Shown one piece after another: positions 31,601 to 64,000 of a stretch of 64,000 nucleotides of DNA (its first letter is position 1; every line of letters begins with the position of its first letter). Both the position numbers and the translations under genes were made by a program. The notes below the pieces were generated by a model, which saw nothing but the letters and a program-made list of their open reading frames with translations, was not told the origin of the DNA and did not search any database. Source of the stretch: Chrysogorgia sp. JL179-B06 (Eukaryota > Cnidaria > Anthozoa > Scleralcyonacea > Chrysogorgiidae); the NCBI GenBank assembly GCA_035772405.1, contig JAYKKM010000176.1, positions 124,001-188,000 of the forward strand, written 5' to 3'.

Positions 31601-34600
31601 TCATCCAAATACGCCAGGCAGATCTTTAGGTTCAGGCCATGCAGACACTGTTCCATCAAGCGCTGGAAAGTTGCCGGGGCGTTGGTGAGACCAAACGGCA
31701 TCCGGTTGTATTCATACAACCCAAATGGTGTTGTTACTGCTGTTTTGTGTCTATCTCGTTTTGCAACTTTCACTTGAAGATAGCCACTCTGTAAATCGAG
31801 GGAACAGAAACATCGGGCACCTTGCAAAGCTTCTAGGGTCTCTGTTATCCTAGGAATAGGGTAGGAGTCTCTGATTGTCTTTGCGTTAATTTTCCTGTAG
31901 TCGACACAGATTCTCAAACTGCATCGAAGGATTTAATGGCGCTTTAGTATCGATTGTTGTATTCGCTATCCAACTCTGTCTCAGTTAGGCCATCTGTGTT
32001 TTCTTCCAATACTTTTCTGATGCGGTTTTCTTCAATCGTGATCTTTTCTTCAACTGACAACTCCATGATTAATATGTATTGTTGCCTTGTCTTTAGTACT
32101 CGTATTTATCGCTATTCGTTAAACGGTCCCCTATCGGGCTCCAGAATATGTAGCAGTAGGCAATGCCTGTGTAACTGCCACACAAGATAAAAGAGGGACA
32201 CTGGACAATACGATTGGTACTATATTTTATTTATCACAAACGATGCACACTGCTGTATTCCCGCGCGTTCTTGTCAGTCGCTGCGGGCTTCCGGTGGCGC
32301 CACATGACGATTTACATTTCGGTCTGTCACTTCCGGTCTACTACATAGACATTGCGCTAAATTATGAGAGGTTACGCTAAGCAGTAGCTTGAAGACGTTA
32401 CGCTAAGTTTTGAGGCTTTCAAATTCAAATAACGCGATTATTATCTTGTCTTTTCAAGACGCTAGGTATTATTTACGGGAAAATATTTTATTATTTGAAT
32501 CTAACTAAATCTAAGGTTTGTAGACTACAAACTATAAATTATTCAGAGTTAAAACTTTCAGATTCACTCATTTCATTGTCTGTGATGTTCTGCCAAAGTT
32601 CAACTTCGGAGTTCAGCTCTTTTCATCACCTAAGGCTAAGCACGCATTGATAGTGGTTTCCTCCGCATCAACTCTCGGTGGACATGAGATCTTTCGGCGC
32701 TGCTTGCTTGCAAGATCTCGACGGCACGATTTATAATTCACGCTCTTTCTTCTGTGCTCGGTGCTCCATATAAGCGATAATTTCCATAAACAACCAAGGC
32801 GTCATTTATGGTGTTGTGGCTCATCAAAAGGCGTTTATATCCAACAGAATGTTTGTTACAACGCTGAAGGTTTGTTCGACGGAAGAGTTTGAGTCAGAAA
32901 TGCTCATAGTCAGGCTTGCCAATTTGCAGATATTTGGGAACTCATGGCGACAGTACGACAGGACTTTGCGTCGGGCAATTTCGAGAAGTGACTTTTCACG
33001 AAAATCTTGAAGCTTCTCCACTCCGTCAGGGGGCGGGAGGTCTCGAAAGATGCGAGTGATAGTGCAGGCTGTTGGAAATGAGTTGTTATCGCCTGGATAT
33101 CTTCAATTCCAAAATCTTTGGTCCAAAAGGCTGGGTAAAACCATTTCATTTTGGAGATATCGTCATCGCACGAAGCGATCTTTCAGGGTTCCGATCACTA
33201 TACGGGAATAACTTTTTTTAATCTTTCAGACTTTTTCTAACATTGATTCCTGTTGACGTCATCCAATTGGAACTCAACGGAGAGATATTCCTGGTTTTGT
33301 TTCTTTTTCATCATGTGTCCAGCTTTTATGAATTGCCATGTGGCAACACCTTCGTCGGAAACTTGGCATCGAGTAACCAAACTGTTGATGAACTCCCTGC
33401 ATTCGGTTCAGATCTCTTCTTCTTCTTTCTCGCGCAACAGAAAAATGGTTCTCGTCACAGCCGAGGAAATTTCGCCATAGCATAAGAATCTCAAATACCA
33501 TTGACGTTGGAGCTATATCATGTCCACAGTCGACACATATATCCATATATGTGTCGGCGGTGCACATAAAGGAATACGATTTAAATTTCTTCAACACCAC
33601 TGATTTTGGCGCAAACGCGTTTGTGGCGACTCATTGTTATAGGTAATATTTCTTAAATTGCCCATCCTGTTCACTTCATCAAGTAATATGCATGTTGAAT
33701 GAATCAGAATCAGACACATCTGATCAAAAAATATTCAATCTTGAAAGATTTCACTAATCTGCATCTAGATAAATTGACTAGAATTAACTCTACGACTTGC
33801 CTCATGAAGTTCATAAAATTATCTCTGGTCGCACCTTTAAAAACAGTAATTATTCCCATCCCTTTCCAGACCCAAATTGGGAAATTATAACAAGCATTGA
33901 GTAATCTCCCTCGCAGCCGTTGTTAGTCGCTGTGGGGCGGGAGGTTCTGAATGCCACTGACAGCGGCTGCAAGGGAGACTAAGAGGGTTTTTTTGGGGTT
34001 TTTTTTAAGCGTTGAGTAAAAGAAAATGATCATGTTTTTAAAACAAATTCTCCCAATAACTACAGTGGAGCCTCGCTATAGGGAGCATCGTTATAACGCA
34101 CAACTTGGTATAACATGGTTTATCCTTGGACCCCAAAAATTTCACTTTGGCAATGCGGCAGTGCGACTAGTCTTTAGCGGACTTCTAACTTCAAGCTTCT
34201 TCAGTCTTGTATTAATTTGCGATCATCTGTAGCAAATCAACTCTTGAATTAAGAACCAATCATCGCTTGAGGTTTCTACATACATATACTGGTCTCCACT
34301 ATGGACCCCAACTACTGCGCTATAGCGAGGCTCCACTGTATTACTATAAGAAATGTTTGGAGACCAATAAGGAGAATTTATATGTTGATACTGGGACTTA
34401 AAATGCCCCTGCGAACCTTTCCTGTAGCCTGCGAAGCAGACGTTTAGGGATTGGGGGAGGGGGCCCAGGGACTGGGGTGAGGGCGGATGGAATGCCTGCA
34501 CGAAAGACCCATGTTTTTGGATTTCTACGTCCACCAAAAGACGCTAAATTCTGATTGGATAACTCAACTCATTAGTATTCAGGGTTTCCTGTCAGGAAAT

Positions 34601-51265: not shown

Positions 51266-51344
51266 CTAGAATTACAAACAGTTTTTAATTACAAACCGTA
51301 ACATTCTGCTTCGTATGCGCACCATACCATATCATATCATTATG

Positions 51345-51480
51345 TTATGCCATGCCATATCATTATGTTATGCCATGCCATATGCCATGCCATATGCCAT
51401 GCCATATGCCATGCCATATGCCATGCCATATGCCATGCCATATGCCATGCCATATGCCATGCCATATGCATATCCATATG
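51345..51480. repeat. 12-bp array CATATGCCATGC
   Basis: About ten copies of CATATGCCATGC lead into the decamer array that follows. Both lie in the intron between exons A and B. Confidence 0.85.
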
Positions 51481-52757
51481 CTGCGCTGTGCTGCGCTGTG
51501 CTGCGCTGTGCTGCGCTGTGCTGCGCTGTGCTGCGCTGTGCTGCGCTGTGCTGCGCTGTGCTGCGCTGTGCTGCGCTGTGCTGCGCTGTGCTGCGCTGTG
51601 CTGCGCTGTGCTGCGCTGTGCTGCGCTGTGCTGCGCTGTGCTGCGCTGTGCTGCGCTGTGCTGCGCTGCGCTGTGCTGCGCTGTGCTGCGCTGTGCTGCG
51701 CTGTGCTGCGCTGTGCTGCGCTGTGCTGCGCTGTGCTGCGCTGTGCTGCGCTGTGCTGCGCTGCGCTGCGCTGCGCTGCGCTGCGCTGTGCTGCGCTGTG
51801 CTGCGCTGTGCTGCGCTGTGCTGCGCTGTGCTGCGCTGTGCTGCGCTGTGCTGCGCTGTGCTGCGCTGTGCTGCGCTGTGCTGCGCTGTGCTGCGCTGTG
51901 CTGCGCTGTGCTGCGCTGTGCTGCGCTGTGCTGCGCTGTGCTGCGCTGTGCTGCGCTGTGCTGCGCTGTGCTGCGCTGTGCTGCGCTGTGCTGCGCTGTG
52001 CTGCGCTGTGCTGCGCTGTGCTGCGCTGTGCTGCGCTGTGCTGCGCTGTGCTGCGCTGTGCTGCGCTGTGCTGCGCTGTGCTGCGCTGTGCTGCGCTGTG
52101 CTGCGCTGTGCTGCGCTGTGCTGCGCTGTGCTGCGCTGTGCTGCGCTGTGCTGCGCTGTGCTGTGATGCGCTGTGCTGTGCTGTGCTGTGCTGTGCTGCG
52201 CTGTGCTGTGATGCGCTGTGCTGTGCTGTGCTGTGCTGTGCTGTGATGTACTGTGCTGTGCTGTGCTGTGCTGCGATGAGCTGTGCCGCGATGCGCTGTG
52301 CTGCGATGCGCTGTGCTGTGCTGCGATGCGCTGTGCTGCGCTGCGATGCGCTGTGCTGCGCTGCGCTGCGCTGTGCTGTGCTGTGCTATGCTGTGCTATG
52401 CTATATGCTATGCTATGCTGTGTTGTGTTGTGTTGTGCTGTGCTGTGCTATGCTATATGCTATGCTATGCTATATGCTATGCTATGCTGTGCTGTGCTGT
52501 GCTGTGCTGTGCTGTGCTGTGCTGTGCTGTGCTGTGCTGTGCTGTGCTGTGCTGTGCTGTGCTGTGCTGTGCTGTGCTGTGCTGTGCTGTGTTATGTTGT
52601 GCTGTGCTGTGCTGTGCTGTGCTGTGCTGTGATGTGCTGTGCTGTGCTGTGCTGTGATGTGATGTGCTGTGATGTGATGATGTGCTGCGCTGTGCTGTGC
52701 TGTGCTGCGCTGTGATGTGATGTGATGTGCTGTGCTGTGATGTGCTGTGCTGTGCTT
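51481..52757. repeat. Decamer array CTGCGCTGTG, decaying to CTGTG
   Basis: About 68 almost perfect head-to-tail copies of CTGCGCTGTG fill 51481-52160. The array then becomes a mosaic of CTGTG, CTGCG, ATGTG and CTATG pentamers up to 52757. The 10-mer is two variant 5-mers, so it is a higher-order form of the pentamer. It gives long Cys/Ala/Val/Leu open frames in all three plus frames; none is a gene. It ends about 11 bp from the donor of exon A. Confidence 0.95.
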
Positions 52758-52768
52758 GTGCTACTCAC

Positions 52769-53340
52769 CACAAAAAGATCTTGCTAGTTGATCGCCATCT
52801 CCTTCTTTAACGTGTACAATCTCCCCAACTTTACAAGCAAGTTTTGAATTGTATCCCTCGATATGCATGCCATTAATACCCATAGCAGTAACAATATGTT
52901 TACTCTCTGCAATCTCAGTCGCATCCAGATCCATTCTCATCATTTCGTGCTTTTTCAACGCTTTGACTTTATCAGTGAAACTACTTTTATCTCGTATCAC
53001 AATTTCAACAGAGATCACCTGTTTGCTCGCACCACCCGCCGCGCTCCTCTTGCTCTTGCCACAGTAAACTTTGACGTTAGTTATGTGGCAGTTGCTTTCG
53101 TGTCTAAGACAGAACAATAGTTTGGAGATAATAAAGTTGTTCACAGCACTTAGGAATTCTTGTTTTATTCTCAATAATGTATCTGGGTCGTTCTCGTTGC
53201 ATTCACCCACATAGGCATTAATGATTTTCTTCACTCCCTCTGCACTGTCTTCCTCTATAGAAACATCGAGAACAAGAATAAAGTTTAACAAATAATTTCC
53301 CAACGCAACCAGGTGATATATCAGCCATAGTTTGACGCTA
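52769..53340 (-). CDS. Cysteine-rich extracellular protein, exon A (5' edge approximate)
   Basis: The frame reads LLNFILVLDVSIEEDSAEGV, KKIINAYVGECNENDP, then RIKQEFLSAVNNFI and so on to QLARSFC, with the donor TGTG/GTGAGT (phase 1), which joins exon B in frame as C-V-K-C. About 180 residues of mixed alpha/beta character precede the first cysteine-rich repeat. I do not recognise the domain. In SVEP1 a comparable non-repeat region also precedes these repeats, so the assignment is by architecture. The frame stays open to about 53345 with no clear acceptor, and the Penelope-like insertion starts just beyond. Confidence 0.7.
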
Positions 53341-53380
53341 CTCTGGCTTTAAAAAGTATTTTGAACGCAAAGTTACTGTC

Positions 53381-53443
53381 CATGACCCAACGTTTCGACA
53401 CTCCAATCTAGTGTCTTCATCAGGGGTGATCGTTGTAAAGTTA
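53381..53443 (-). ncRNA. Hammerhead-like motif, arm 1
   Basis: On the minus strand: CTGATGA, one A, a perfect 6-bp stem (GACACT/AGTGTC, loop AGATTGG), GAAAC, then GTTGGGTC. The conserved core boxes CUGANGA and GAAA and a GUC triplet are present in the right order. The extra A after the first box and the lack of a good stem I leave activity in doubt. Confidence 0.35.
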
Positions 53444-53483
53444 TAGGATCCCTATTTATACCCTCATAGAACTGATGATGACG

Positions 53484-53835
53484 TTATCTATTAACAAGAT
53501 GCAAATAAGCTTCTGGTAATAAACCACCGTCATCGCGATTCAAAGGGGCGTGGGCGCTATTGATATGCCAAGCCTCCAGACAACGTCGCTGATGGTACCG
53601 CGGACTAGTGGTAATAATTTTTGAATTTTCCCACGCAATCTCATGGCAGGTTACGCACGCGTTGTCCGACAAAGCAGAATTTTCCTTTTTTTGAAAAGAA
53701 AACAGCCTTTTGGTGTTCTTTTAAACGCGTACGAAACTGACGTTTAGTCGGACCGATGTACTCCTGATCACAGTCATTGCACCGAATGGAATAAATAGCG
53801 TCTTTCCTCTGTTCCTTCGCAATACGATCCTTAGG
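53484..53835 (-). pseudogene. GIY-YIG endonuclease domain, Penelope-type, frameshifted
   Basis: Minus-strand reading from about 53830: AIYSIRCNDCDQEYIGPTKR followed by QFRTRLKEHQKAV, the GIY-YIG core (here AIYSI...EYIG, then R and E/H positions as in the family). In a second frame after an A-run near 53690, it goes on as SDNACVTCHEIAWENSKIIT to LEAWHINSAHAPLNRDDGGL and LPEAYLHLVNR. This is the usual C-terminal end of Penelope-like proteins. The frame change marks it as dead. Confidence 0.8.
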
Positions 53836-53839
53836 ATCC

Positions 53840-53902
53840 TAACTTTACAACGATCACCCCTGATGAAGGCACTAGATTGGAGCGTCGAAACGTTGGGTCA
53901 TG
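53840..53902 (+). ncRNA. Hammerhead-like motif, arm 2
   Basis: Inverted copy of arm 1. The stem here is GGCACT/AGCGTC, one mismatch and one wobble weaker than in arm 1, so it is the less likely of the two to be active. Confidence 0.3.
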
Positions 53903-53908
53903 GATAGT

Positions 53909-54010
53909 AGTAGTATAGAAAGTGGGGCTACCAGCACACTTTTCCATTTTTTCATGCTTCGCAATCAAAATGTTAAAAAGTTTGCTGTTAACCCCACTTT
54001 CGAGACTACT
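53909..54010. repeat. Left terminus of the Polinton-type element, internally palindromic
   Basis: AGTAGTATAGAAAGTGGGGC at 53909 recurs in reverse complement at 53984-54010 (AGTAGTCTCGAAAGTGGGG on the minus strand), 23 of 27 positions alike, around a spacer of about 48 bp. The terminal repeat can therefore fold on itself. The matching right terminus lies outside the window. Confidence 0.65.
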
Positions 54011-54034
54011 AAAACGAGACTAAATAAATTATAC

Positions 54035-54307
54035 TCAAAAATCGTCACACACGTTTCCCAAAATATTTTTTCGAGTATTAGTACGTAGAAGCCGCAACTC
54101 TCTTTTACGACTGGTCATCCTTTTCCCGAGTACAGTATGTTTAAACCTCTCGTCTAGTTTCTTCCACTCTAGATTACTGTTAGTGAATAGTTGTCGTTTC
54201 ATCTCTCTTACCTGGTAGATAAATAGGAGGTCTTCGTTTAGTCTCACTGTCTTTTCCTCCACTGACTCCCGACGTTCTACACTACTATTCATGGCTACAG
54301 TACTCAT
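54035..54307 (-). CDS. Unknown 90-residue protein of the Polinton-type element
   Basis: I do not recognise it. It is strongly charged, with RRESVEEKTVRLNEDLLFIY, then EWKKLDERFKHTVLGKR and a basic RELRLLRTNTRK end; it is probably all helical. It is the last gene of the minus block and ends about 25 bp from the internal palindrome of the terminus. Its ATG is preceded by an AT-rich leader, and a second ATG 5 codons in is possible. Confidence 0.55.
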   Translation of the reverse strand: MSTVAMNSSVERRESVEEKTVRLNEDLLFIYQVREMKRQLFTNSNLEWKKLDERFKHTVLGKRMTSRKRELRLLRTNTRKNILGNVCDDF

Positions 54308-54356
54308 TAAGTTAGTGTATACTCATGTATTTAGGTCGTTTTGTAAATTATTGTAA

Positions 54357-54905
54357 TTAGATAGTACTGTCTCCTTCATTCGGTGGTTTCCCCTCAGGGG
54401 TTTCCCCTCTTGCCATGTGACTAAGTACGTGTTTACTAGTTGTCAGTCCACCTGATAACAACCCTAGATAAGGGAGGTAGGGGGATATATATGATATAAT
54501 CTTCTCTACATCTCTTTTAAGTAGTTGGTCAGTAATCAACTCTTTTTCGAGCTTTTCAGGTGATTCAATAGCGTTGAACCCTCCTAACGCGTGGGCGAAC
54601 TTACTTATTAAAAGATCACATAGGAACGCGTTCGCTTTCTCCATTCTTTTTACCTCCCATTCTTCATAGATCTTGTTGATAACTTTAGATGAGGCCTTTT
54701 TGATATAGGCGACGGATTGGTCTATCTCACCGTCTTCTGAGAGTCTTTTTAGTTCGTTTCGTTTTTTGTCTACATCAGTTTGCGGAGTGTCGTCAACTTG
54801 TGGTGTATCGATTTGTGGTTCGTCGATCACTTCCTGTTCTGCTTCTTGTATGTCTTCGATGAGTTCGTCAATTGTCTCAGGATTTTTTGTCTTACGTCTT
54901 GGCAT
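54357..54905 (-). CDS. Unknown 182-residue acidic protein of the Polinton-type element
   Basis: It opens with basic MPRRKTKNPE, then a long acidic stretch (ELIEDIQEAEQEVIDEPQID), a helical middle, and a hydrophobic ISPYLPYLGLLSGGLTTSK segment near residues 138-157. Its start overlaps the end of the ATPase frame by 14 nt. TATAGTATA lies just upstream of the ATG (54910-54919 on the plus strand). The gene position beside ATPase and capsid suggests a virion or assembly role; the family is unknown. Confidence 0.6.
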   Translation of the reverse strand: MPRRKTKNPETIDELIEDIQEAEQEVIDEPQIDTPQVDDTPQTDVDKKRNELKRLSEDGEIDQSVAYIKKASSKVINKIYEEWEVKRMEKANAFLCDLLISKFAHALGGFNAIESPEKLEKELITDQLLKRDVEKIISYISPYLPYLGLLSGGLTTSKHVLSHMARGETPEGKPPNEGDSTI

Positions 54906-55360
54906 GTCCTATACTATACGACGTGTTTTGTTTTCGCGGAATAACTAATTCATACGAGTATGGATGTCTTAGAAGTATCTCCAATCTTGCGTACTCGTTG
55001 TCTTTCAACTGTTTTATTATTTTCTGAATTTCCGCTTTATCAACTCCATTGAGATAATCGTCTACGATAATTTTCATATCGTTTCTATTAGGGTTGTAGA
55101 ATGTTACTAACTTTGAGATGTTCTCACGGTATGGTTTACTAATTGAGGTTAGTTGTTGTGTTATGACTATTGTGGATAGGTTGTAGTGTCTAGCACTAAA
55201 GGCTAGTTTAACTAGTTCGCTTGTTCTGTTTTTAACATCCTGTCCACCAGCACAATCATCTAATATTATTAGTGAGTTGGTACCTTTATAAGTGTTAGTC
55301 ACATGTTTGAGGACTACGTTGACCTTGTCTTGCTCACACTGAATAGCGATAAAGTCTGGG
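54892..55360 (-). pseudogene. Packaging ATPase, C-terminal part (frame-shifted)
   Basis: A32-type (FtsK/HerA-like) ATPases drive DNA into the capsid. This frame, open from about 55360, holds the Walker B strand SLIILDDCAGG and a following ITQQLTS segment (the sensor-like Q common in this family), then FYNPNRNDMKIIVDDYLNG and a basic tail. It is in a different frame from the Walker A part; the shift falls within about 15 bp of 55360. Both halves are otherwise well kept, so the break is recent or a sequence error. Confidence 0.8.
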
Positions 55361-55528
55361 TCTCAAGTATTTCCACTCTATGTACGTCTTATTCCATTCG
55401 AACGTTGGGCATATAAGAATGATGAAATCGAAGTGATTCATGTAGTATTTCTCTATCATATCCAAGAGGTAGTACGTTTTACCGCAGGCTGTCATGCCAA
55501 CAATCAGCATGTTAAAAGGTGTTTTCAT
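55334..55528 (-). pseudogene. Packaging ATPase, N-terminal part (frame-shifted)
   Basis: From MKTPFNMLIVGMTACGKTYY: the Walker A GMTACGKT is at residues 11-18, followed by FDFIILICPTFEWNKTYIEW. GMTxxGKT near the N-terminus is the form seen in Polinton and related virus ATPases. The frame ends in a stop after 64 codons. The start has TATAGTATTC upstream and lies 16 bp after the stop of the capsid frame. Confidence 0.85.
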
Positions 55529-55544
55529 ATAGAATACTATATGT

Positions 55545-56146
55545 TTAGTACTGGATTGATTGTAGATCGTTGTTGATGAAGTTTACGAGACCATCGGAGA
55601 GTACGAATATTCTACACATAACGTTCGCTGTTGTGGCTTCTTTATTGATTTCCATCAATATTCCTGACTGGGTGTTCACGATCCTTTTTCCAGTTGCAAC
55701 TTTCACGTTATCTTCGATAGATCTAAGGTCAACAACCAAAGCGAAACCGTCTTTGTAAAACTTTTGAACAGTCATATGCTGGTCGGAGTCTAGTCCTTGT
55801 CCGAATAGTCTTTTCGCTTCTCCCCAGAGTCTTGATTTCGGTATTCCTTGACTGTAGACCATGTTTGGTACACCTTCAATAGTGAGTTTCACCGACTCTA
55901 TGTTTGGGTAGACGAACTCCTCACTGTCAGTTCTTGTCTTATTTGTGAAGAGTAGAACGACGGCTTTCATCGATTTTCTTGGTAGGTTAATGTTCTCGTT
56001 TACGAGTGTGATTCCCTTATCCCACTCCACAGTCTTCATTAGTGTGATGTGTTCGTATGATAGAGACCTTCCAGACGCGTATAGAGATGATACTTCGTCA
56101 GCAATCTCTTGATTCTCGATAGTTTCGTACTCCAACTCAAGGTTCT
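55545..56146 (-). pseudogene. Major capsid protein, C-terminal half (frame-shifted)
   Basis: The second jelly-roll half: LEYETIENQEIADEVSSLYA, then SLSYEHITLMKTVEWDKG, NLPRKSMKAVVLLFTN, YPNIESVKLTIEGVPNMVYS and ATTANVMCRIFVLSDGL to NDLQSIQY. I recognise the pair of frames as the double-jelly-roll capsid type of animal Polinton-like elements. It sits one frame away from the N-terminal half. No credible independent start is seen, so a single ancestral gene of about 410 codons is inferred. Confidence 0.78.
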
Positions 56147-56785
56147 CTAACGTATAGCTATAGCCACAGCTGATCCAGATTGAGCCACCATAATATCAGA
56201 CGCTTTTGGGAGTGTGATTATATACCTGAAATTGTTGTTCATGTTGTATGGTGCGTATAGACCATGATCTTCTAGAATCTTGTCGATTTGAACCTTTTGT
56301 TTAGTGTTATGGATGGAGAACATCAGACCATCACTAACTTTTTGCACGTCTCCACTGGTCGCACCACTGTCATCCTTTGAGATTAGCTTTCGAAGGTTCT
56401 CGTTTGCTATACCGTATTCGACCATCTGGTCTCGCTCACTGTTAGGTTTCCAGAGGTCTTTGTACGTACCGATGACGCTTTCACCACTATTGTCGTACAC
56501 GGACTCACCAGCTAGTTTTACCACCAGTCTCTCAAATAGTAGTTTCGAAAGGTTGTTAAGAAACCATGATTTCGCATTCGAACTCTTAAAGTCGAATAGA
56601 ATATGGAGACTAGAGGGTACCAAACAAGTGTTACCCTTTGTTTTCGGGATATCGATGTATAACTCTTCTCCTGGATTGGCTTTGTTGGGGTTTAGCGTTA
56701 CAACGTTACGGGCTCTTACGCCTTTGATAGTAGAAATTTCGCGGCGTCTATATCCAGGAAGCAACTCTTTCTCGTTAGTATTCAT
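56147..56785 (-). pseudogene. Major capsid protein, N-terminal half (frame-shifted)
   Basis: It starts MNTNEKELLPGYRRREISTI, then TLNPNKANPGEELYIDIPK, SSLHILFDFKSSNAKSWFLN, LFERLVVKLAGESVYDN and DHGLYAPYNMNNNFRYIITL. The mature shell protein would form hexon-like trimers. The frame ends SGSAVAIAIR and a stop at 56147. The C-terminal half begins within a few bases in another frame, near a GCTATAGCTATA direct repeat that may be the site of the indel. The start is supported by TATAATATATAGT just upstream of the ATG. Confidence 0.8.
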
Positions 56786-56807
56786 ACTATATATTATAAC
56801 ACATGTT

Positions 56808-58238
56808 TTATTTCCTCTGTTTGTACTGGTCGTAGACGAACCAAGCTAGTGCTATCGCTAGGATCCATAAATTAGACGCTAACCAAGATATGCCTGCAGC
56901 TCCCCACTTTAGCGCAGTTGCCACCACGTTTAGCAGTCCAGCCAGTAGAGGACCAGCCTTTGTGGCTAGGTTAGCTATAGCTTTTCCTAATTTTCCAAGT
57001 GCTTGACCACCTTTGAAGACAACACTTCTAGCTGATATTATGATTGTGGTGATAAAAGAGGCTATGGTTATTCCTAGAGCTGAGGCGCCTAACCAATTTT
57101 CTCTAAACCACTCCTTTATTTTTTGTAACCGAGTGATGTCCTCTTCCTGTTGTTCTCTAACCTCCTCACGTTCCAATTGATTTAAGGTTCGATCCTTAGC
57201 TATCTCGAGACCTGTCAATCGCTCAAACAATTCTCTCCTCTCTATGGAACCGTGTTCCTCTCTTTTCATGTCGTCTGTAGTCTTGTCAATAGCGTCCTGA
57301 AAATGGTCGGCTTGTGCTTTTAGAAATAGTGGTCTAGTGCGTGGGTCGATTGTATCACTTGGGTTTAGGACACCTATTAACTCACGATTCTCTTCTTCTG
57401 TTAACCCAAATACGTTATTATAGTTCACTTCTGTTTCAATTACTGGGAAGTCCTCACTTGAAACTGTGGTGTCTTCTGTTCTATCGTCAGTTGTTGGGGT
57501 GTCTACTGTTATAACGTCAGTTGTTGTTGTGTCGGGGATTTGTCCAACTAACTTCTTAAACTGCTCAATCGCACTTTTACTTCTACTGTCTGTACTGTAT
57601 ATTAAACCATTTTTTCCAGGTTTTAGTATTAGTTTAGGTCTCAAATATCCACCGTCTTCTCCTACCGGTTTGAAAAGAATAGAACCTGAGGGTGTCACAT
57701 ATGACCTATTGACTATATTCCTTGACACGTCGTCATTACTGAGTCTTTTTTTATACAACCTATGTATTTTCTTATCTATTAGATTGGTTCTTTTTACACC
57801 ATTTACTATTAACTTTTTATTGTCTCCTTTTAGTTCTTTCAGTCTTCTTTCGATTTCATTCGCCTCTTCGAAAGCTAAATTGAAGCTCTCATCGTGGACG
57901 TCACCATATGTTGCCGGTTCAGGAAACACTACTGTTGGAGCCTCAGCGGTGACATTACTACCCTTACTAGTGATTAACACTGTTTTCCCATCTTTTCCGT
58001 CTGTGAATAATGTCTCCATATATTTTATTCTGTCTTGTACTCTGTGTGATATGTCTCTCTTCTCCATCTCTCGTTCTACCCTAGTGATTCTGTCGAATGT
58101 ACCACTATATTCTGGTCTTGTCTCGTCTCCCGTGAGTGTGTTATTGAGCATGTTAAACTCTTCTTCTAACTGTTTGTCTGTATATTTCTCGAACTTGTCA
58201 CGGTCTTGCATTTCGATTTCATCGAGTCCTTCAGCCAT
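56808..58238 (-). CDS. 476-residue coiled-coil and membrane protein of the Polinton-type element
   Basis: The N-terminal 340 residues are charged and likely helical (MAEGLDEIEMQDRDKFEKYT, then RVEREMEKRDISHRVQDRIK), with a Thr-rich linker (TTTDVITVDTPTTDDRTEDT). The C-terminal 100 residues carry hydrophobic segments: ASALGITIASFITTIIISA, a Gly/Ala-rich amphipathic stretch (GPLLAGLLNVVATALKWGAA) and SNLWILAIALAWFVYDQYK. It lies between integrase and capsid genes, 22 bp before the capsid start. A membrane-active minor virion protein is plausible by position and shape; no family is recognised. AGTAGTATATA precedes the ATG. Confidence 0.7.
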   Translation of the reverse strand: MAEGLDEIEMQDRDKFEKYTDKQLEEEFNMLNNTLTGDETRPEYSGTFDRITRVEREMEKRDISHRVQDRIKYMETLFTDGKDGKTVLITSKGSNVTAEAPTVVFPEPATYGDVHDESFNLAFEEANEIERRLKELKGDNKKLIVNGVKRTNLIDKKIHRLYKKRLSNDDVSRNIVNRSYVTPSGSILFKPVGEDGGYLRPKLILKPGKNGLIYSTDSRSKSAIEQFKKLVGQIPDTTTTDVITVDTPTTDDRTEDTTVSSEDFPVIETEVNYNNVFGLTEEENRELIGVLNPSDTIDPRTRPLFLKAQADHFQDAIDKTTDDMKREEHGSIERRELFERLTGLEIAKDRTLNQLEREEVREQQEEDITRLQKIKEWFRENWLGASALGITIASFITTIIISARSVVFKGGQALGKLGKAIANLATKAGPLLAGLLNVVATALKWGAAGISWLASNLWILAIALAWFVYDQYKQRK

Positions 58239-58244
58239 TATATA

Positions 58245-59324
58245 CTACTCGATGTTTTGAATATCACTCTCTAGTATCCATGAGTTGTGTTTGCTGTCGT
58301 AGCCAAGCCACTTGACTAAGACCATTTTCTTACCTCCCACCTTCTTTCTCTTCACTATCCTCTCAACTTTATATACATCGTCTTTTTTATCGACGACCGA
58401 CAACTCTTCCTCGTAGAACTTACCAGTGATGGATTCCCCTTCATGGTCTTCTATCTCATACACGGTAGGGTCACCACGCATAACCTTTGATACTTTGAAT
58501 AGCTCCTCAGTGAAGTTAGCCTCATACCCTTTTGCGAATATGCTTTTGTACTTTGATATCCTGACAGTCTCACCTACTTTGAACTTTGGCAGTGGGTAGT
58601 CACCGAAATGGTGTCCAAACAATGTCGTCCATACTTCGTTTTCGTTTTTCTTACTAACGTCTTTAGGTTTCATTAGAATAGTACTGTGTTTGGTATTATT
58701 GTAATTTTCAACGAGTTGGTCTAAAATGTCAATCCACTTGTACGTTCCTTTACTGTAGAAGTACTTCCACATAGACGTCTTGAGTGTTCTGTTAAACCTT
58801 TCCACGACTGCTGCCTTTTTATCAGAGTTCGTGCTGAAGTACTTCACATTGTGTTTATCCAATAGATCCTTCACACCAACGTTATAGAATTCCTTACCGT
58901 CGTCAAACTGAACCAGCTTTGGATACTCGCCAAATCTAACCTTAGCCTTCTCTAGTAACTCTGTTACAGCCTTAGTCATGTTTTTCGTATCTTTCCTATA
59001 GACAGGTATTGCGAAAGCATACCTACTAAGGATCTCAGTGGCTGTTAGTATCCAGTAGTACCTGTTGTTCTTATGCTTGTACTTGCCCATGTCAACCAAG
59101 TCCATCTGTATCTGCTCACCCAGATAGTCAACAAATGTTTGTCTAAACTTATGTTTCTTAACAACTGGTTTGTACCTGGTGTACGTGTCTTGAGATTTTA
59201 GCCAATCCTTTATCTTTGTCCTACTAACGTTTAGACCGTCTTCTTGTGCCTTTTGGTACAGCCTCTCAGCAGACTGGTAACCAGTTGATGGGTTGTAGTA
59301 AATATCTCTTAGTTCTTGCTCCAT
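58245..59324 (-). CDS. Polinton-type integrase with C-terminal chromodomain
   Basis: A retroviral-type DDE recombinase that joins element ends to host DNA. In the numbering from 59330, an N-terminal helical module (DIYYNPSTGYQSAERLYQKA, then SRTKIKDWLKSQDTYT) precedes the rve core with D77 (QMDLVDM), D143 (QFDDGKEF) and E177 (VVERFNRT). An SH3-like part follows (FKVGETVRISKYKSIFAKGY) and a chromodomain at about 318-360 (VYKVERIVKRKK...VLVKWLGYDSKHNSWI). All three catalytic acids are present and the frame is intact. The ATG at 59324 is preferred over the GTG at 59330, as it is the first ATG and starts 5 bp after the stop of the gene before. Confidence 0.92.
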   Translation of the reverse strand: MEQELRDIYYNPSTGYQSAERLYQKAQEDGLNVSRTKIKDWLKSQDTYTRYKPVVKKHKFRQTFVDYLGEQIQMDLVDMGKYKHKNNRYYWILTATEILSRYAFAIPVYRKDTKNMTKAVTELLEKAKVRFGEYPKLVQFDDGKEFYNVGVKDLLDKHNVKYFSTNSDKKAAVVERFNRTLKTSMWKYFYSKGTYKWIDILDQLVENYNNTKHSTILMKPKDVSKKNENEVWTTLFGHHFGDYPLPKFKVGETVRISKYKSIFAKGYEANFTEELFKVSKVMRGDPTVYEIEDHEGESITGKFYEEELSVVDKKDDVYKVERIVKRKKVGGKKMVLVKWLGYDSKHNSWILESDIQNIE

Positions 59325-59329
59325 ATACA

Positions 59330-59974
59330 CTACGTGATGTGTAAATCTAGCAGCACCTCACCAACGTTAACACTGTTATCGTCCTGATCTGTTATCTTGA
59401 ACTCTAGTTGGTTGATAACTCCTTTGTTTATTGGGATTTTCGACCCAACACCAAAATGTTGTACAGAGTCCTTTAATGTCTGTGTGCTAGTTATTGGCAG
59501 TACTGCGATACAACCACTTTTGCTACCATTAACTATGTTCTTAGACCTGTCCACGATACTAGACGTTACTTGTACGTATTTCAGTCCTCTGTTAACGTTC
59601 ACAACGTTAGGACTGGTTTTTGTGGTGGCTATTGTAGTGTTTTCGTCCAACCCTAAAAGTTGTCCAAATTTAAACAGTTCTATTCGTTGATCAGTTGTTA
59701 TCGTACACGTCGAGTCATGTCTGTTAGCCACTAGCTTCACGTCTCCTAACTCTTTCAAGTCGTCGGCGATCATTTTAAAGGTGTGGTACCCAGGACTAAA
59801 AACGTGGTCACTACTGTTGTAAGTTATCTTGTTGTTAGCTGTGGTTACGTTAACATAGTCCCAAAAGATGGTTGCCTCCTTCACTAGTAAGTGAGGGTCT
59901 AAGTTAGTTGCTAGAGTTGACTCTGGTAGGTCTACAGTTTTAGTTGAGCCACTAATCAATACTACCACTCTCAT
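59330..59974 (-). CDS. Candidate minor capsid (penton-like) protein
   Basis: 214 residues, rich in beta-prone stretches: VVVLISGSTKTVDLPES, FSPGYHTFKMIADDLKELGD, LKYVQVTSSIVDRSKNIVNG and a terminal INQLEFKITDQDDNSVNVGE. Length and beta content fit the single-jelly-roll minor capsid protein of Polintons, and it heads the block that includes the capsid protein and ATPase. The assignment is an inference from size, composition and context. Its start lies only 17 bp from the start of the divergent plus-strand gene. Confidence 0.5.
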   Translation of the reverse strand: MRVVVLISGSTKTVDLPESTLATNLDPHLLVKEATIFWDYVNVTTANNKITYNSSDHVFSPGYHTFKMIADDLKELGDVKLVANRHDSTCTITTDQRIELFKFGQLLGLDENTTIATTKTSPNVVNVNRGLKYVQVTSSIVDRSKNIVNGSKSGCIAVLPITSTQTLKDSVQHFGVGSKIPINKGVINQLEFKITDQDDNSVNVGEVLLDLHIT

Positions 59975-59991
59975 ATAACGTACGGTATATT
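59975..59991. promoter_or_regulatory. 17-bp divergent start region
   Basis: ATAACGTACGGTATATT separates the ATGs of two divergent genes. It contains the palindrome AACGTACGGT/ACCGTACGTT in part, and TATA-like steps on both strands. Leaders must be extremely short or the promoters must overlap the opposing coding regions. Confidence 0.55.
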
Positions 59992-61620
59992 ATGATGGAT
60001 GCTTTCAAAAGAAAGTATCCTTATGCTGACAAGAATAGGTTTTTTCTTGACGTCGACGACAATATGCATATACATATATTCTTCGTGACGAAAACTAATA
60101 TTGGTGACGTTAGTGTAGACTCGAGTAGGTTTAAGAGTAATCCGGAGTATACTAAGTATCTAACGATAAACAAACCAATGATAGTTAACCAGAAAGAGAT
60201 AGCTAACGCCGTACGTGTGGCTAAGCTGAATCTAGTCAAAAAGTACCCTCACATCACTTTGAGTAAGTTTGAGTTCGATCCAACTGTCTCACAAGATGGT
60301 GAGGTTAATGGCGTTGACATATATTTTAGAAACAACGACATCATAAGCACGAACATAACTAGTGATACCTTCAAAAACGACAAGAGTATGTGGGTTTGGT
60401 TACACAACAACAAATCTCCAAAAGGTAACGACAAGTTTCCAGAAATATGGTTATCTGGTGGAACTATCCAACCACTATCAAAAGGTCGCAAGAATCACTG
60501 GGGACTTTGGGATGGCTATCCAACGAAAAACGTGTTGAACTACCCAGTGAATAACTTTAGAGTCTTCGTTAATCGAAAGAGCTACTTTCTCTCAAAGCTA
60601 CCAATATTACAAATCACCACTTCAAAGACAAAGTCAAAGTGGGACGACAACGAGAGCTACTATAGAGTAGTGTTTGCAACATATTGTGCAAGTTTCTGTT
60701 GTGGAGTGTCGTTACAACACTTATCACCGTCGCAAGAAGTCCACCCTGTTATCACAAGTGTGATGAGGTTCCATCTGTACTTTACTGTTAGAAGACTTCT
60801 AAGAAGGATGGAAGGTGGTGAGAGTATGAGATCGATAAGTAGAGAGTTTGATGCTGGAGAATTGTATGGTAAGACAGACAAGATTCCTAAAAAGCATTAC
60901 TATCAGGGTAAAGTCCTTGCTGACGGTACAACAGGTGAGGAGAGAGTCTTCACGATTAATGACGTTAAGAACGACTACAAACGATACGTTCCTCTGGTGT
61001 CGAATGGTTTCACCAACATTGGGAGACAATACCTAAACCAGTCTATAGAAGCCTTTGTTTACTCTACACTTGGTGCACAAGCGAGGACACGTGTGTCAGT
61101 CGTTGGTGATTCAGCAGGTAGTCTAGAGACTCAACAAGAGTTCCGAAAGTTGGTGGAGGATAGTGTTATAAACTACGACGTTTCAACATGGATTCTCAAC
61201 ATGAACAAGTCGATTAAAGACACTAACGTTGTCCAAAACCTTGCACTGTCACCGTCTACGTGGTTAATGCCAAGTAACGTTGTAATCCTCAAGAACAAAA
61301 TCGCTGGGTACAACAACCTATTGAAGACTGCCACACAGAGTATGAAGTTTGGAGTAAACAGTGGGTTAAACTACACAGAAACGACGGAGGTTAAGAAAGT
61401 ACACCAAGAAGGTGGAGAGCATCTGGAGACACTTGATAAACCAAAGGTGACGAATCGTCTGACACCAAACGTGACACATCAGGAGACACTTGATAAACCA
61501 AAGGTGACACACCGTCTGGAGGTATCAAAGGCGACACCAGGTGACAACACGACAGAGTTGGGGCTAATTCTAGTGGTTTCGGCTGTGTCTGGCTATTTAG
61601 TGAGCAAATATGTGTTATAA
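59992..61620 (+). CDS. 542-residue tail-anchored protein of the Polinton-type element
   Basis: Family not recognised. The N-terminal 250 residues look like a folded alpha/beta domain (KRKYPYADKNRFFLDVDDNM, KFPEIWLSGGTIQPLSKG). The middle has a Cys-bearing YCASFCCGVSLQHL and a basic RFHLYFTVRRLLRRMEGGES. Near the C-terminus are two copies of ETLDKPKVT-RL (about residues 482-512), then a single hydrophobic segment LGLILVVSAVSGYLVSKYVL at the very end, giving a tail anchor with no signal peptide. It is first in the plus-strand block with the fibre-like gene, so a virion surface or membrane role is plausible. Confidence 0.65.
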   Translation: MMDAFKRKYPYADKNRFFLDVDDNMHIHIFFVTKTNIGDVSVDSSRFKSNPEYTKYLTINKPMIVNQKEIANAVRVAKLNLVKKYPHITLSKFEFDPTVSQDGEVNGVDIYFRNNDIISTNITSDTFKNDKSMWVWLHNNKSPKGNDKFPEIWLSGGTIQPLSKGRKNHWGLWDGYPTKNVLNYPVNNFRVFVNRKSYFLSKLPILQITTSKTKSKWDDNESYYRVVFATYCASFCCGVSLQHLSPSQEVHPVITSVMRFHLYFTVRRLLRRMEGGESMRSISREFDAGELYGKTDKIPKKHYYQGKVLADGTTGEERVFTINDVKNDYKRYVPLVSNGFTNIGRQYLNQSIEAFVYSTLGAQARTRVSVVGDSAGSLETQQEFRKLVEDSVINYDVSTWILNMNKSIKDTNVVQNLALSPSTWLMPSNVVILKNKIAGYNNLLKTATQSMKFGVNSGLNYTETTEVKKVHQEGGEHLETLDKPKVTNRLTPNVTHQETLDKPKVTHRLEVSKATPGDNTTELGLILVVSAVSGYLVSKYVL

Positions 61621-61624
61621 CATA

Positions 61625-62572
61625 ATGAGTCTAAGTTATGGATTTGAGGACAGAGACTACGAGAGTGACAAAATACTAAGAAGAGCGAAGAGACATCTAG
61701 ACAGTGACCCTAAGTTAAGCGTGAGCGGTGGGAGGATGTCTGGAGACATAGATATGGCGTTCAGGACACTCAAAAACATAGCAGATCCAGAAGATGATTG
61801 GGATGCTATCAATAAAAAAGTGTTGGAGTCCGTATACTTATCGCAATACTTTAGAACGCAATCCCACAACGTTCTATTTGATTTTAACGTCACAAACCAT
61901 GCTGTGAGTATGGTGGAATACCATAGTGGAACAAATAAAGTGAAAACCATTAGAGATAAAACGAATATGTTAGTACAATACGATCCAACGTATGGTCCTA
62001 TTATTGGTGTTAACAACGGTCATAGCTTCCTATCCCCCGAAATAACTCCAATTCCGTTTGAAGTTGGAGTACATTTTAACTGTCCACGTATGCAATACTG
62101 TGACATATCCGTTTTCGTGGTAGTTAGGTTAGCCATGAGGGTAACTACTAAAGATTGGGAGGCGATTATCTCAAACGATGACGGATCGTGGGACAAATAC
62201 ATAGGATACAAAGGAGGTGATAAATTATCATATGGTGGTGGCTCTCCAGCAAAGGAGTACACGTGTACAATCCCAAACAACATCGACACCACCAAGAAAC
62301 ATATGATATCAATACATTGGCGGATGGGTAACTCCTACGTTAAGGTGAACAACATAAGATCAACAGACTCAGACTTCACAGCTAATTACGAAGAGATAGG
62401 GTCTCCTTACGTAACGATCTTTGGAGTTCATCGACCAAGAGTACCACTAGCACCCTACAAGTACCCGTCTATGATAGAGTTCTACGGTGTTAGGATTGTC
62501 TCTGGCTACATGACGAGCCGAGACATAATATTAGTTGGTAGAGATATGATGAAGGAATATGATGTGAGCTAA
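61625..62572 (+). CDS. Fibre-like protein with phage-tail-fibre-type N-terminus
   Basis: 315 residues from the ATG at 61625. The N-terminal SGGRMSGDIDMAFRTLKNIA followed by DPEDDWDAINKKV has the layout GGxMSGDIDM...xxNxxDPxxxxDAxxKK found at the shaft of many phage tail fibres. The rest (about 90-315) is beta-rich and jelly-roll-like (VLFDFNVTNHAVSMVEYHSG, ISIHWRMGNSYVKVNNIRST), as in LamG/concanavalin-type lectin folds. An attachment fibre is inferred. An upstream ATG at 61610 overlaps the gene before; the ATG at 61625 is chosen because GTTATAACATA lies directly before it, as before other genes here. Confidence 0.65.
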   Translation: MSLSYGFEDRDYESDKILRRAKRHLDSDPKLSVSGGRMSGDIDMAFRTLKNIADPEDDWDAINKKVLESVYLSQYFRTQSHNVLFDFNVTNHAVSMVEYHSGTNKVKTIRDKTNMLVQYDPTYGPIIGVNNGHSFLSPEITPIPFEVGVHFNCPRMQYCDISVFVVVRLAMRVTTKDWEAIISNDDGSWDKYIGYKGGDKLSYGGGSPAKEYTCTIPNNIDTTKKHMISIHWRMGNSYVKVNNIRSTDSDFTANYEEIGSPYVTIFGVHRPRVPLAPYKYPSMIEFYGVRIVSGYMTSRDIILVGRDMMKEYDVS

Positions 62573-62577
62573 GATAT

Positions 62578-63147
62578 ATGAGGAAGAAGTCAGTTGTTGT
62601 TTTCAATCACATATCAAAAGATATGTCAGAGGAAGAGGTGCTAGAGCTCAAACGATTGTACGCGTACTACCACAAACTAGAAGCCTGTTACAAATGGAAA
62701 TACAAGAGGTTGAAGAAAGTTAAACTATCGTTAAACATGATTAGCATAGGGTTAACGACAGTGGGGATTGTAGCTGGATCGATAACCGCTAACCCTCTAA
62801 TCATTGCTTGTATTAGTGGTCCTGGTGTGATCATCCAAGGCTACTTGGCTAAATCCAATCTGACGAGTAGAGTGGAGCATTGCAAGTTTGCTCACACTAG
62901 CTACAAAAAGATACTGACACAACTAAGATCGTATCTTAGAGGTCTTCCTTACAACGAGTCAATGTTCCTCTCAGACGTTAAAGTGTTGGACGATAATGTG
63001 ACTGACTTATGTCCACCAATCAATGGAATGGTGAAAAGGTACAACAAAGTATACGAGACACAAGGGGGGCGCGATTCACGCCCCCCTTTAAACGCGGGTC
63101 TACACGTAATAACCAGTGATGTGTCAGTCGACAAGTTCCAAGAGTAG
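62578..63147 (+). CDS. 189-residue protein with two membrane helices
   Basis: A charged helical start (SEEEVLELKRLYAYYHKLEA, then CYKWKYKRLKKVKLS) is followed by two hydrophobic helices: LNMISIGLTTVGIVAGSI and PLIIACISGPGVIIQGYLA. A further helical part follows (CKFAHTSYKKILTQLRSYLR). The helix, hairpin of two membrane segments, helix layout is reminiscent of SLATT-type domains, but I would not assign it on this alone. The C-terminal 35 codons span a G6/C6 hairpin (63062-63088). Starts 5 bp after the fibre-like gene; AAGATAT precedes the ATG. Confidence 0.6.
   Translation: MRKKSVVVFNHISKDMSEEEVLELKRLYAYYHKLEACYKWKYKRLKKVKLSLNMISIGLTTVGIVAGSITANPLIIACISGPGVIIQGYLAKSNLTSRVEHCKFAHTSYKKILTQLRSYLRGLPYNESMFLSDVKVLDDNVTDLCPPINGMVKRYNKVYETQGGRDSRPPLNAGLHVITSDVSVDKFQE
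63062..63088. repeat. G6/C6 hairpin inside the two-helix gene
   Basis: AAGGGGGGCG (63062-63071), loop CGATTCA, CGCCCCCCTT (63079-63088): a perfect 10-bp stem within coding sequence (GGRDSRPPL). Confidence 0.85.
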
Positions 63148-63177
63148 GTGCTTAGAATTATTACCATCAATTAGCTC

Positions 63178-63216
63178 ATTTTGACCAACCCCCCAAAACG
63201 GGGGGTTGGTCAAAAT
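63178..63216. repeat. Perfect 17-bp hairpin, copy 1
   Basis: ATTTTGACCAACCCCCC, loop AAAAC, GGGGGGTTGGTCAAAAT. It begins 30 bp after the stop of the two-helix gene. It could act as a transcript end, a protein-binding site or a recombination remnant. Confidence 0.9.
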
Positions 63217-63371
63217 AGTCCTAAAACAGGACCTCAGCTATTCTTAAAAATAACTGCTACTTTGAAGACTACAATTAAGATGTCCTAATAGCGTGTAAAT
63301 AGTAGTAAAATATTAAGACACTACATGTGGTCCCCTACTGATAGTATGTTTGTGATCGATAGAAGGGTCAC
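63217..63371. other. AT-rich spacer between the two hairpins
   Basis: No coding sequence is seen. The block CTACATGTGGTCCCCTACTG (63321) partly resembles the sequence before the BRO-N gene (AACATGTGGTATAGTATAG, 63472-63490). Confidence 0.5.
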
Positions 63372-63406
63372 TTTGACCAACCCCCCAAAACGGGGGGTTG
63401 GTCAAA
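63372..63406. repeat. Perfect 15-bp hairpin, copy 2
   Basis: TTTGACCAACCCCCC, loop AAAAC, GGGGGGTTGGTCAAA, the same sequence as copy 1 over its whole length. It lies 88 bp before the BRO-N start. Confidence 0.9.
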
Positions 63407-63471
63407 TCACACGTTTGCGCTACTAAGTGGTTTACTTTCTTAAGATGACTACTACTTAAACACAAAAATAA

Positions 63472-63493
63472 AACATGTGGTATAGTATAGGTG
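63472..63493 (+). promoter_or_regulatory. Start-proximal TATAGTATA motif of the BRO-N gene
   Basis: ATGTGGTATAGTATAGGTG directly precedes the ATG. GTATAGTATA or close forms also precede the 182-residue gene, the ATPase, the capsid gene and the membrane protein gene, so a shared promoter element is proposed. Confidence 0.5.
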
Positions 63494-64000
63494 ATGAGTC
63501 TCACTAAAATATTTAGAAATAACGACATGTCTGTCACTGCTACAAAAGATGGAGATAATATTTGGTTCTATGGAAAAGAGGTAGCTGAAATCTTAGGGTA
63601 TAAGAGATCATATAAGGCTATAACAGACCACGTGGCAGACGACGAGAAAATAAAGGTCCAAGTATCAAGGTCCCAAAACGGGGTGTTGGTCAAAAGTATG
63701 GTTTGGCAAGTAAATGAGAGTGGTTTGTATAGACTAATATTCTCATCTAAGTTAGAATCAGCCGAGACTTTTAGGAAGTGGGTGTTCTCAGAAGTCCTAC
63801 CGTCTATTAGAAAAACAGGTGTTTACATACAATGCAATCAGTTATCAATAATGAATGAGACAGACTTGCATTACGATATAGTTAAATATATTAGAGAGTA
63901 CTATCCAACAATAGTCATCCCAGGGTTGGGTGAGTACCAAGACACATCTACTAAAAGAATAGATGGATGGAAGAAAGGTTACAGTGGTGGACAACCAGAT
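63494..64000 (+). CDS. BRO-N domain protein, C-terminus off window
   Basis: BRO-N is a DNA-binding domain common in large DNA viruses, phages and mobile elements, often next to KilA-N-type or nuclease domains. From MSLTKIFRNNDMSVTATKDG, the N-domain reads WFYGKEVAEILGYKRSYKAI, MVWQVNESGLYRLIFSSKLE and FRKWVFSEVLPSIRKTGVY (residues about 10-115), all hallmarks of the family. After a linker it goes on YPTIVIPGLGEYQDTSTKRI then DGWKKGYSGGQPD at the window edge. The GGQPD ending recalls the start of VRR-NUC-like nuclease cores (xGxPDL), but only the first part is visible. Codons 61-67 lie in a copy of the hairpin half (QNGVLVK). Confidence 0.85.
   Translation, partial: MSLTKIFRNNDMSVTATKDGDNIWFYGKEVAEILGYKRSYKAITDHVADDEKIKVQVSRSQNGVLVKSMVWQVNESGLYRLIFSSKLESAETFRKWVFSEVLPSIRKTGVYIQCNQLSIMNETDLHYDIVKYIREYYPTIVIPGLGEYQDTSTKRIDGWKKGYSGGQPD

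Follow-up and report, generated by a model that had tools for sequence, protein, structure and literature searches.

A 64,000-nucleotide stretch of the genome of the cnidarian Chrysogorgia sp. JL179-B06, hereafter the window (positions 124001-188000 of contig JAYKKM010000176.1; genome of 781 Mb in 522 contigs), holds the left ~10 kb of a virus-like element that begins at 53909 and runs past the window edge (64000). The element is endogenous, multicopy and of the Polinton/adintovirus kind, as the first-pass annotation of the window had proposed: an integrase with a chromodomain, an A32-type ATPase, inverted ends, 6-base-pair (bp) target duplications and a polymerase-type frame were all found. 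In addition, it carries a plus-strand block of genes whose products would make contact with the cell, a BRO-N-VRR-NUC-C2H2 protein which may act as a nuclease on short palindromes in and near its own gene, and AT-rich motifs next to start codons which may serve as its own promoters. To this reading as a whole we assign a probability of about 0.72.

The ends and the copy number of the element were established from other copies fetched from the genome (L002-L008 and further L-numbered loci; L009 is the sequence directly right of the window edge). In five of the seven other copies with the left region fetched, the match to the window starts at 53905-53909, with none outside; one copy matches only further in and one not at all. 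Both ends are palindromic, the left one folding at -24 to -35 kcal/mol over ~100 nucleotides (nt; window and five copies) and the right one at -82 to -101 kcal/mol over ~220 nt (five copies; DNA parameters in both cases). The 6-bp target duplication typical of Polintons was present in all five copies with both ends read (CTAGTA, TTATTT, CGCTTA, TGGGTA and, only after a one-base shift of the end, AATCGA). A terminal 27-mer has 506 + 500 = 1,006 genomic matches at no more than one mismatch, its reversed control none, which makes several hundred copies of the element likely. The length of ~16.7 kb is a sum of coordinates from different copies. The outermost bases at the right end of L015 show the terminal palindrome in the form proper to its inner arm, which looks like an exchange of arms. 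The element would spread, or until recently have spread, as a virus-like element, with protein-primed replication, packaging by the ATPase and integration driven by the integrase.

The first-pass annotation had also looked to the sequence right of the window for a polymerase and the right terminus, and would have been refuted had neither been present within ~12 kb. This refutation did not come about: a polymerase-type frame lies 2.4-4.5 kb past the window edge on the minus strand, and the right terminus was read in other copies, that of the window copy lying beyond a nested element. Past the edge, L009 holds the VRR-NUC and C2H2 tail of the BRO protein, frames of 106, 138 and 229 amino acids (aa), and then the polymerase-type frame (1391-1426 aa, open in three of seven right-end loci), which we take to be a protein-primed polymerase B from motifs A, B and C recognised by eye. 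The seven other copies all follow L009 as far as base 4477 and continue, and the window copy breaks there: a second, related element of ~19.7 kb (L009:4478 to L025:4331) sits inside its polymerase-type gene, flanked by the 6-bp duplication TCTACG, and the first element resumes at L025:4338. The inverted ends of the second element measure 971 bp and are 99.3% identical. The gene order common to both elements is 182, ATPase, capsid-type, 476, integrase, 214, 542, fibre, BRO-VRR, 106, 138 and 229 (numbers denoting lengths in aa), with protein identities of 32-79%; the polymerase of the second element lies on the opposite strand, and a thymidine kinase is present (4.1e-28). The second element also has an extra 476-type piece and a second 214-type gene. 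The two elements also have in common a protein (L009:1571-2260 and L024:9116-9679; 32% identity) whose two CxxC pairs may form a zinc ribbon, with no convincing family match in the libraries scanned. The window copy is broken, in its ATPase and capsid-type frames, and carries a nested element.

All four frames of the plus-strand block are real and constrained. Between eight copies (window, L002-L007 and L008; 28 pairs, uncorrected for multiple hits) the ratio of nonsynonymous to synonymous differences (pN/pS) is 0.08 for the C-terminal part of the 542-aa protein, 0.11 for the fibre, 0.29 for the 189-aa protein and 0.35 for the part of BRO in the window, pS being 0.37 in the BRO part as against 0.08-0.11 in the other three; the four genes are under purifying selection between copies. 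The second element has 542-aa, fibre and BRO genes as well, arranged alike (72%, 61% and 43% identity). The block is indeed extra to the usual core set, as first annotated, and these three genes are no private accessory of one element. The match of the fibre to tail fibre PHROG 2710 (0.0034) is stronger in the copy of the second element (8.5e-5), and its C-terminal part is presumably lectin-like. The family of the 542-aa protein comprises 34 homologues at E <= 0.01 among 6,087 candidates from a large protein collection, some of which may derive from this or a near genome. One of them (P0025) runs on into a BRO-N-VRR-NUC part and another sequence (P0036) joins the end of a 542-type protein to the start of a fibre, so that the order of the block is not restricted to the window copy. 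A structure model, for which 25 of the 34 homologues were aligned with the protein, has a confident core (predicted local distance difference test, pLDDT, 77), and no known fold was matched in the structure search. A 42-nt direct repeat (61420-61518) lies in the linker of this protein ahead of its membrane anchor. As for function, the block would make contact with a cell: the fibre may bind the surface, the tail-anchored 542-aa protein would sit in a membrane, and the SLATT-like protein described below could open one, be it that of the endosome or of the host.

The 189-aa protein is likely SLATT-like, that is, a predicted membrane-pore former, on the grounds of profile matches and a structure model. 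Of 134 candidates, 107 proved to be homologues, and in an alignment of the window protein with 37 of them SLATT_4 was matched by 31 of the 38 members (best 2.9e-5), other NCBIfam families by no more than two each. Among the 50 viral structures listed for the helical model in BFVD, nine are named SLATT or SMODS/SLOG-associating 2TM (Foldseek probability 0.96-1.00), and the matches named SLATT include giant-virus proteins. Among 1,117 candidate copies in the genome, the 150 that score best include 141 whose frame is free of stops, and no SLATT match was found in the second element. Genes of this type have already been reported in Polinton-like viruses of cryptophytes, with a proposed role in endosomal escape (available part of PMC12220804). 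With a predicted pore and a BRO-N-VRR-NUC-C2H2 protein among its products, the block no longer fits the role in entry or attachment alone that had been put forward for it.

The BRO frame is contiguous across the window edge and encodes 263 aa. In the second element BRO-N (5.3e-20) and VRR_NUC (1.1e-5, above the cut-off) are found together in a single frame. Free-standing VRR-NUC proteins are dimers that cut four-way junctions (available part of PMC4103454). Two perfect palindromes with the same arms lie between SLATT and BRO and a third lies within the SLATT frame; these are the three hairpins with arms of at least 9 in 54041-64000, against 0.3 on average in shuffled sequence (maximum 1 in 20 shuffles). 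Moreover, a stretch of the BRO-N variable region matches the loop and one arm of a palindrome in all but one base, the best of 60 resamples reaching 16/23.

The palindromes vary between copies in sequence, position and loop orientation, as was seen when the window was compared with 40 further high-scoring copies (ranks 2-41 of the 150 best SLATT copies). At least three arm types occur, at one, both or neither of the intergenic sites, and at the same intergenic site the loop stands in either orientation. The palindromes also reach into open coding frames. The one at the SLATT end, perfect or imperfect, is present in seven of eight copies, L002 ending SLATT ahead of it like the homologue P0037, and hairpins with arms of at least 8 occur in the BRO coding region of 12 of the 39 copies (of 41) in which the BRO start was located by its motif, 11 of these frames being at least 247 aa long and one broken at 85 aa. 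The 39 copies hold 21 distinct variable-region strings, one of them empty and some differing by one residue or a shift. In L039 a broken BRO frame (85 aa) is followed downstream by a second one of 268 aa. A 31-mer of one palindrome type has 52 places in the genome and its reversed control none; 20 places, taken from those that inspection had not assigned to known copies, were sampled and all proved to be element DNA (fibre, SLATT and BRO matches at 17, a SLATT end at one, the intergenic region only at two), and no dispersal over unrelated host genes was seen among them. The junction-type nuclease that the element encodes may act on these palindromes: they would extrude as four-way junctions, the BRO-N-VRR-NUC-C2H2 protein would bind the DNA and cut them, and cutting followed by repair would flip loops, move palindromes between sites and exchange them between copies. 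We propose that this is why, within the stretch compared, the BRO part has diverged more than any other coding part. In its most far-reaching form, the idea is that of a virus lineage with a sequence-shuffling system of its own: the nuclease would flip palindromes, which lie upstream of and within the gene part for its DNA-binding domain and in the neighbouring pore gene, and swap them between co-resident elements, so creating recognition types akin to phage immunity types, and transcription would start from start-proximal promoters belonging to the element. This form seems to us rather unlikely.

Other explanations of the palindromes do not involve cutting by BRO. Independent mobile repeats, hitch-hiking in the element and tolerated where inserted in frame, would account for palindromes in two different open frames, for the copy which ends SLATT ahead of its palindrome and for the several arm families, and would resemble the palindromic elements of Rickettsia, short palindromes which likewise lie inside open coding frames. 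However, the palindromes described here belong to a virus-like element, in whose DNA all 20 sampled places lie, surround a nuclease gene and show both loop orientations at one site; insertion alone leaves such inversion at fixed sites unexplained, and neither a target duplication nor a clean empty site was found. We regard mobile repeats as somewhat unlikely. BRO-N is related to phage antirepressors, and the BRO protein matches a phage antirepressor (3.1e-35), so the intergenic palindromes might instead be operators at which a dimeric BRO controls its own gene in an allele-specific manner, as in a phage immunity region. Perfect dyad symmetry upstream of BRO and the variability of both BRO sequences and palindrome types agree with that, but several copies have no palindrome of this type upstream, those in coding frames are left unexplained, and the palindromes of L005 and L006 do not suit their own BRO stretch at the aligned place but that found in the window and in L003. 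We regard operators as quite improbable. Hairpins are known to mark transcript ends in mimiviruses (the hairpin rule). Here one palindrome lies just 3' of the SLATT stop, RNA folding is strong (z -7.5), and one palindrome arm could pair with the BRO message from the window copy, being its complement. Yet a part in transcript ending or RNA processing, or as hairpin RNAs acting on BRO messages, is very unlikely given the short stems, the polymorphic presence and position and the occurrence within reading frames. Cutting of the palindromes by the BRO nuclease remains the explanation that we prefer.

An AT-rich motif like AAAACATGTGGTATAGTATA adjoins many start codons of the element on both strands. 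The motif search over 11 upstream stretches gave 144.3, compared with 114.6 +/- 4.2 (maximum 128.5) in 60 control sets drawn from the element. With the resulting matrix, 16 held-out genes taken from both elements outscored 3,000 controls (p 1.3e-5), seven of the 16 lying above the 95th percentile, and the 12 genes of the second element alone gave p 3.2e-4. In a set of 27 genes that includes the 11 from which the motif was derived, 12 have GTATA within the last 30 nt before them, against 3.6%. The motifs could act as the element's own promoters, and a TATA-like box so near the start codon, should it function as such boxes do in large DNA viruses, would entail leaders of very small length. The alternative is that they reflect start-codon context together with coding constraint. 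AT-rich sequence is common ahead of start codons, many motif sites overlap the end of the preceding gene, and nine of the 16 held-out genes fail to exceed the 95th percentile, which counts against promoters; on the other hand, the enrichment in held-out genes, the frequency of GTATA and the agreement in 22 of 24 bases between the site preceding BRO and that preceding the capsid-type gene, which is on the other strand, speak against mere context, and this alternative appears distinctly unlikely. To our knowledge no helper virus is known for the present element, which sets it apart from virophages. A repeated motif upstream of many genes is a likeness to virophages with giant-virus-linked promoters (available part of PMC8547959).

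Table 1. Features of the element in the window (positions in the window; L009 continues it to the right).
Feature	Position	Strand	Basis or remark
Left terminus	53909..54011	none	Inverted end AGTAGTATAGAAAGTGGGG..., self-folding hairpin of ~100 nt, z -7.6
90-aa frame, no family	54035..54307	-	Open reading frame
182-aa frame	54357..54905	-	Kept in second element, 51%
A32-type packaging ATPase, frame broken in window copy	54892..55528	-	Pox_A32
Capsid-type gene, split in two frames	55545..56785	-	Homologue in second element; no library match
476-aa protein, hydrophobic C-terminal part	56808..58238	-	Conserved in second element
rve integrase with C-terminal chromodomain, open	58245..59330	-	rve 7.9e-9, Chromo 2.4e-11
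214-aa protein	59330..59974	-	Conserved in second element
542-aa tail-anchored protein	59992..61620	+	Homologues; core modelled with confidence, no fold matched
Fibre: phage tail-fibre-type segment, then presumed lectin-like part	61625..62572	+	PHROG 2710
SLATT-like two-helix membrane protein, 189 aa	62578..63147	+	NCBIfam profiles, structure model, homologues
Palindrome in SLATT coding frame, arms 10	63062..63088	none	In C-terminal extension absent from L002 and 37 aligned homologues
Perfect palindrome, arms 17	63178..63216	none	Between SLATT and BRO
Perfect palindrome, arms 15, same arms as 63178..63216	63372..63406	none	Between SLATT and BRO
Start-proximal motif before BRO, AATAAAACATGTGGTATAGTATA	63467..63489	+	Repeat and motif search
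BRO-N domain of BRO-N-VRR-NUC-C2H2 protein	63494..64000, continuing L009:1-285	+	BRO-N 1.8e-24
BRO-N variable-region stretch similar to palindrome loop and arm	63672..63694	none	22/23 bases

The minus-strand genes (Table 1) bear out most of what had been read from the window. The integrase with its chromodomain stands, and so does the A32 ATPase, with the qualification that its gene is broken in the window copy, since Pox_A32 is matched at 54892-55302 (5.7e-9) and the Walker-A part (from 55528) sits in a different frame; an open homologue in L009 matches Pox_A32 at 4.2e-16. The capsid-type frames are real as well, their two pieces (56147-56785 and 55545-56135) being 66% and 79% identical to a single 412-aa frame of the second element and hence parts of one broken gene. 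The name capsid is, however, our assumption, since no library gave it: we take this gene to encode the major capsid protein and the 214-aa protein to be a minor capsid or penton protein, for which a profile search of PDB sequences returned nothing notable.

Several observations weigh against the reading given above. The capsid, penton and polymerase names are presumptive, being based on characteristic motifs, position and size. The capsid-type and 214-aa frames have no match in Pfam, PHROGs, NCBIfam or PDB sequences; an endonuclease VII-type stretch is all that Pfam and PHROGs identify within the polymerase-type frame, and no adenain-type protease was recognised among the frames scanned, a diverged one being possible. 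The window SLATT-like protein reaches 17.4 of 55 bits with SLATT_4, below the curated cut-off, and matches no SLATT family in Pfam; no BFVD match to its model attains E 0.001 among the matches listed, and helical bundles match easily, arfaptin and NINJ1 also being among the structure matches. VRR_NUC in the tail of the window BRO protein is likewise below its cut-off (0.0072). The link between nuclease and palindromes is an inferred one. Hairpins with arms of at least 9 are similarly frequent in the flank (17 in 1-50000, against 3 in the 10 kb of the element), so that their number alone is not special and only length, relatedness and variation set those of the element apart; the longest flank hairpin, a single one, has arms of 13, compared with 17 and 15 for the intergenic palindromes. 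No clean insertion boundary or empty site emerged from the comparison with L002, because the surrounding sequence of that copy differs too, and no flipping of the terminal-hairpin loop was seen in the six left ends read.

To the left of the element, the host gene that had been placed next to it was not confirmed. The frame concerned (52761-53303) matches no Pfam family, and 53374-53909 holds an inverted-repeat pair with arms of 70 nt (53374-53443 and 53840-53909; 96% complementary), between which lies what we take to be the GIY-YIG remnant of a Penelope-type element. The virus-like element reads as if it had gone into or beside this putative remnant. Further left are a long tract of simple repeats, several frames of which are open (51315-52750), and a 1055-aa frame (28750-31917), presumably the polyprotein of a gypsy-type retroelement.

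The rve integrase with chromodomain, the A32 ATPase, the capsid-type set, the long polymerase-type frame, the inverted ends and the 6-bp duplications are shared with Polintons/Mavericks and adintoviruses (the latter as defined in the available part of PMC11071296). Hairpin termini, the tail-anchored 542-aa protein with no match to a known fold, SLATT, BRO-N-VRR-NUC-C2H2 and the palindrome locus are in that comparison found here only, and a protease was not recognised. SLATT genes and phage-type fibres are common to this element and cryptophyte Polinton-like viruses (available part of PMC12220804), but the latter are algal, and here SLATT accompanies an rve integrase, the 542-aa protein and BRO-VRR-NUC. 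A fusion of BRO-N to VRR-NUC is shared with OmPLV of the dinoflagellate Oxyrrhis marina, which differs in its tyrosine recombinase and helicase-polymerase fusion from the rve integrase and added C2H2 finger described here; palindromes are not mentioned in the available part of the OmPLV description (PMC12721341). Neither the joint occurrence of rve integrase, 542-aa protein, SLATT and BRO-VRR-NUC nor the start-proximal motif nor, above all, the palindrome system was found in the literature searched, as far as the available parts of these sources go. The element family is known; the palindrome system appears to be new.

Many eukaryotic DNA viruses probably have their origin close to Polintons, and little is known of how their animal members enter cells, switch genes on and compete. 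With ~1,000 termini in one genome, natural variation becomes measurable, and the variation of the palindromes from copy to copy is a natural experiment on change and competition among elements of this kind. The SLATT-like pore, the conserved tail-anchored protein with no match to a known fold and the start-proximal motifs provide concrete hypotheses for entry and transcription. If the proposal is true, palindromes that reach coding frames beside a junction-type nuclease would constitute a new way to diversify a viral protein.

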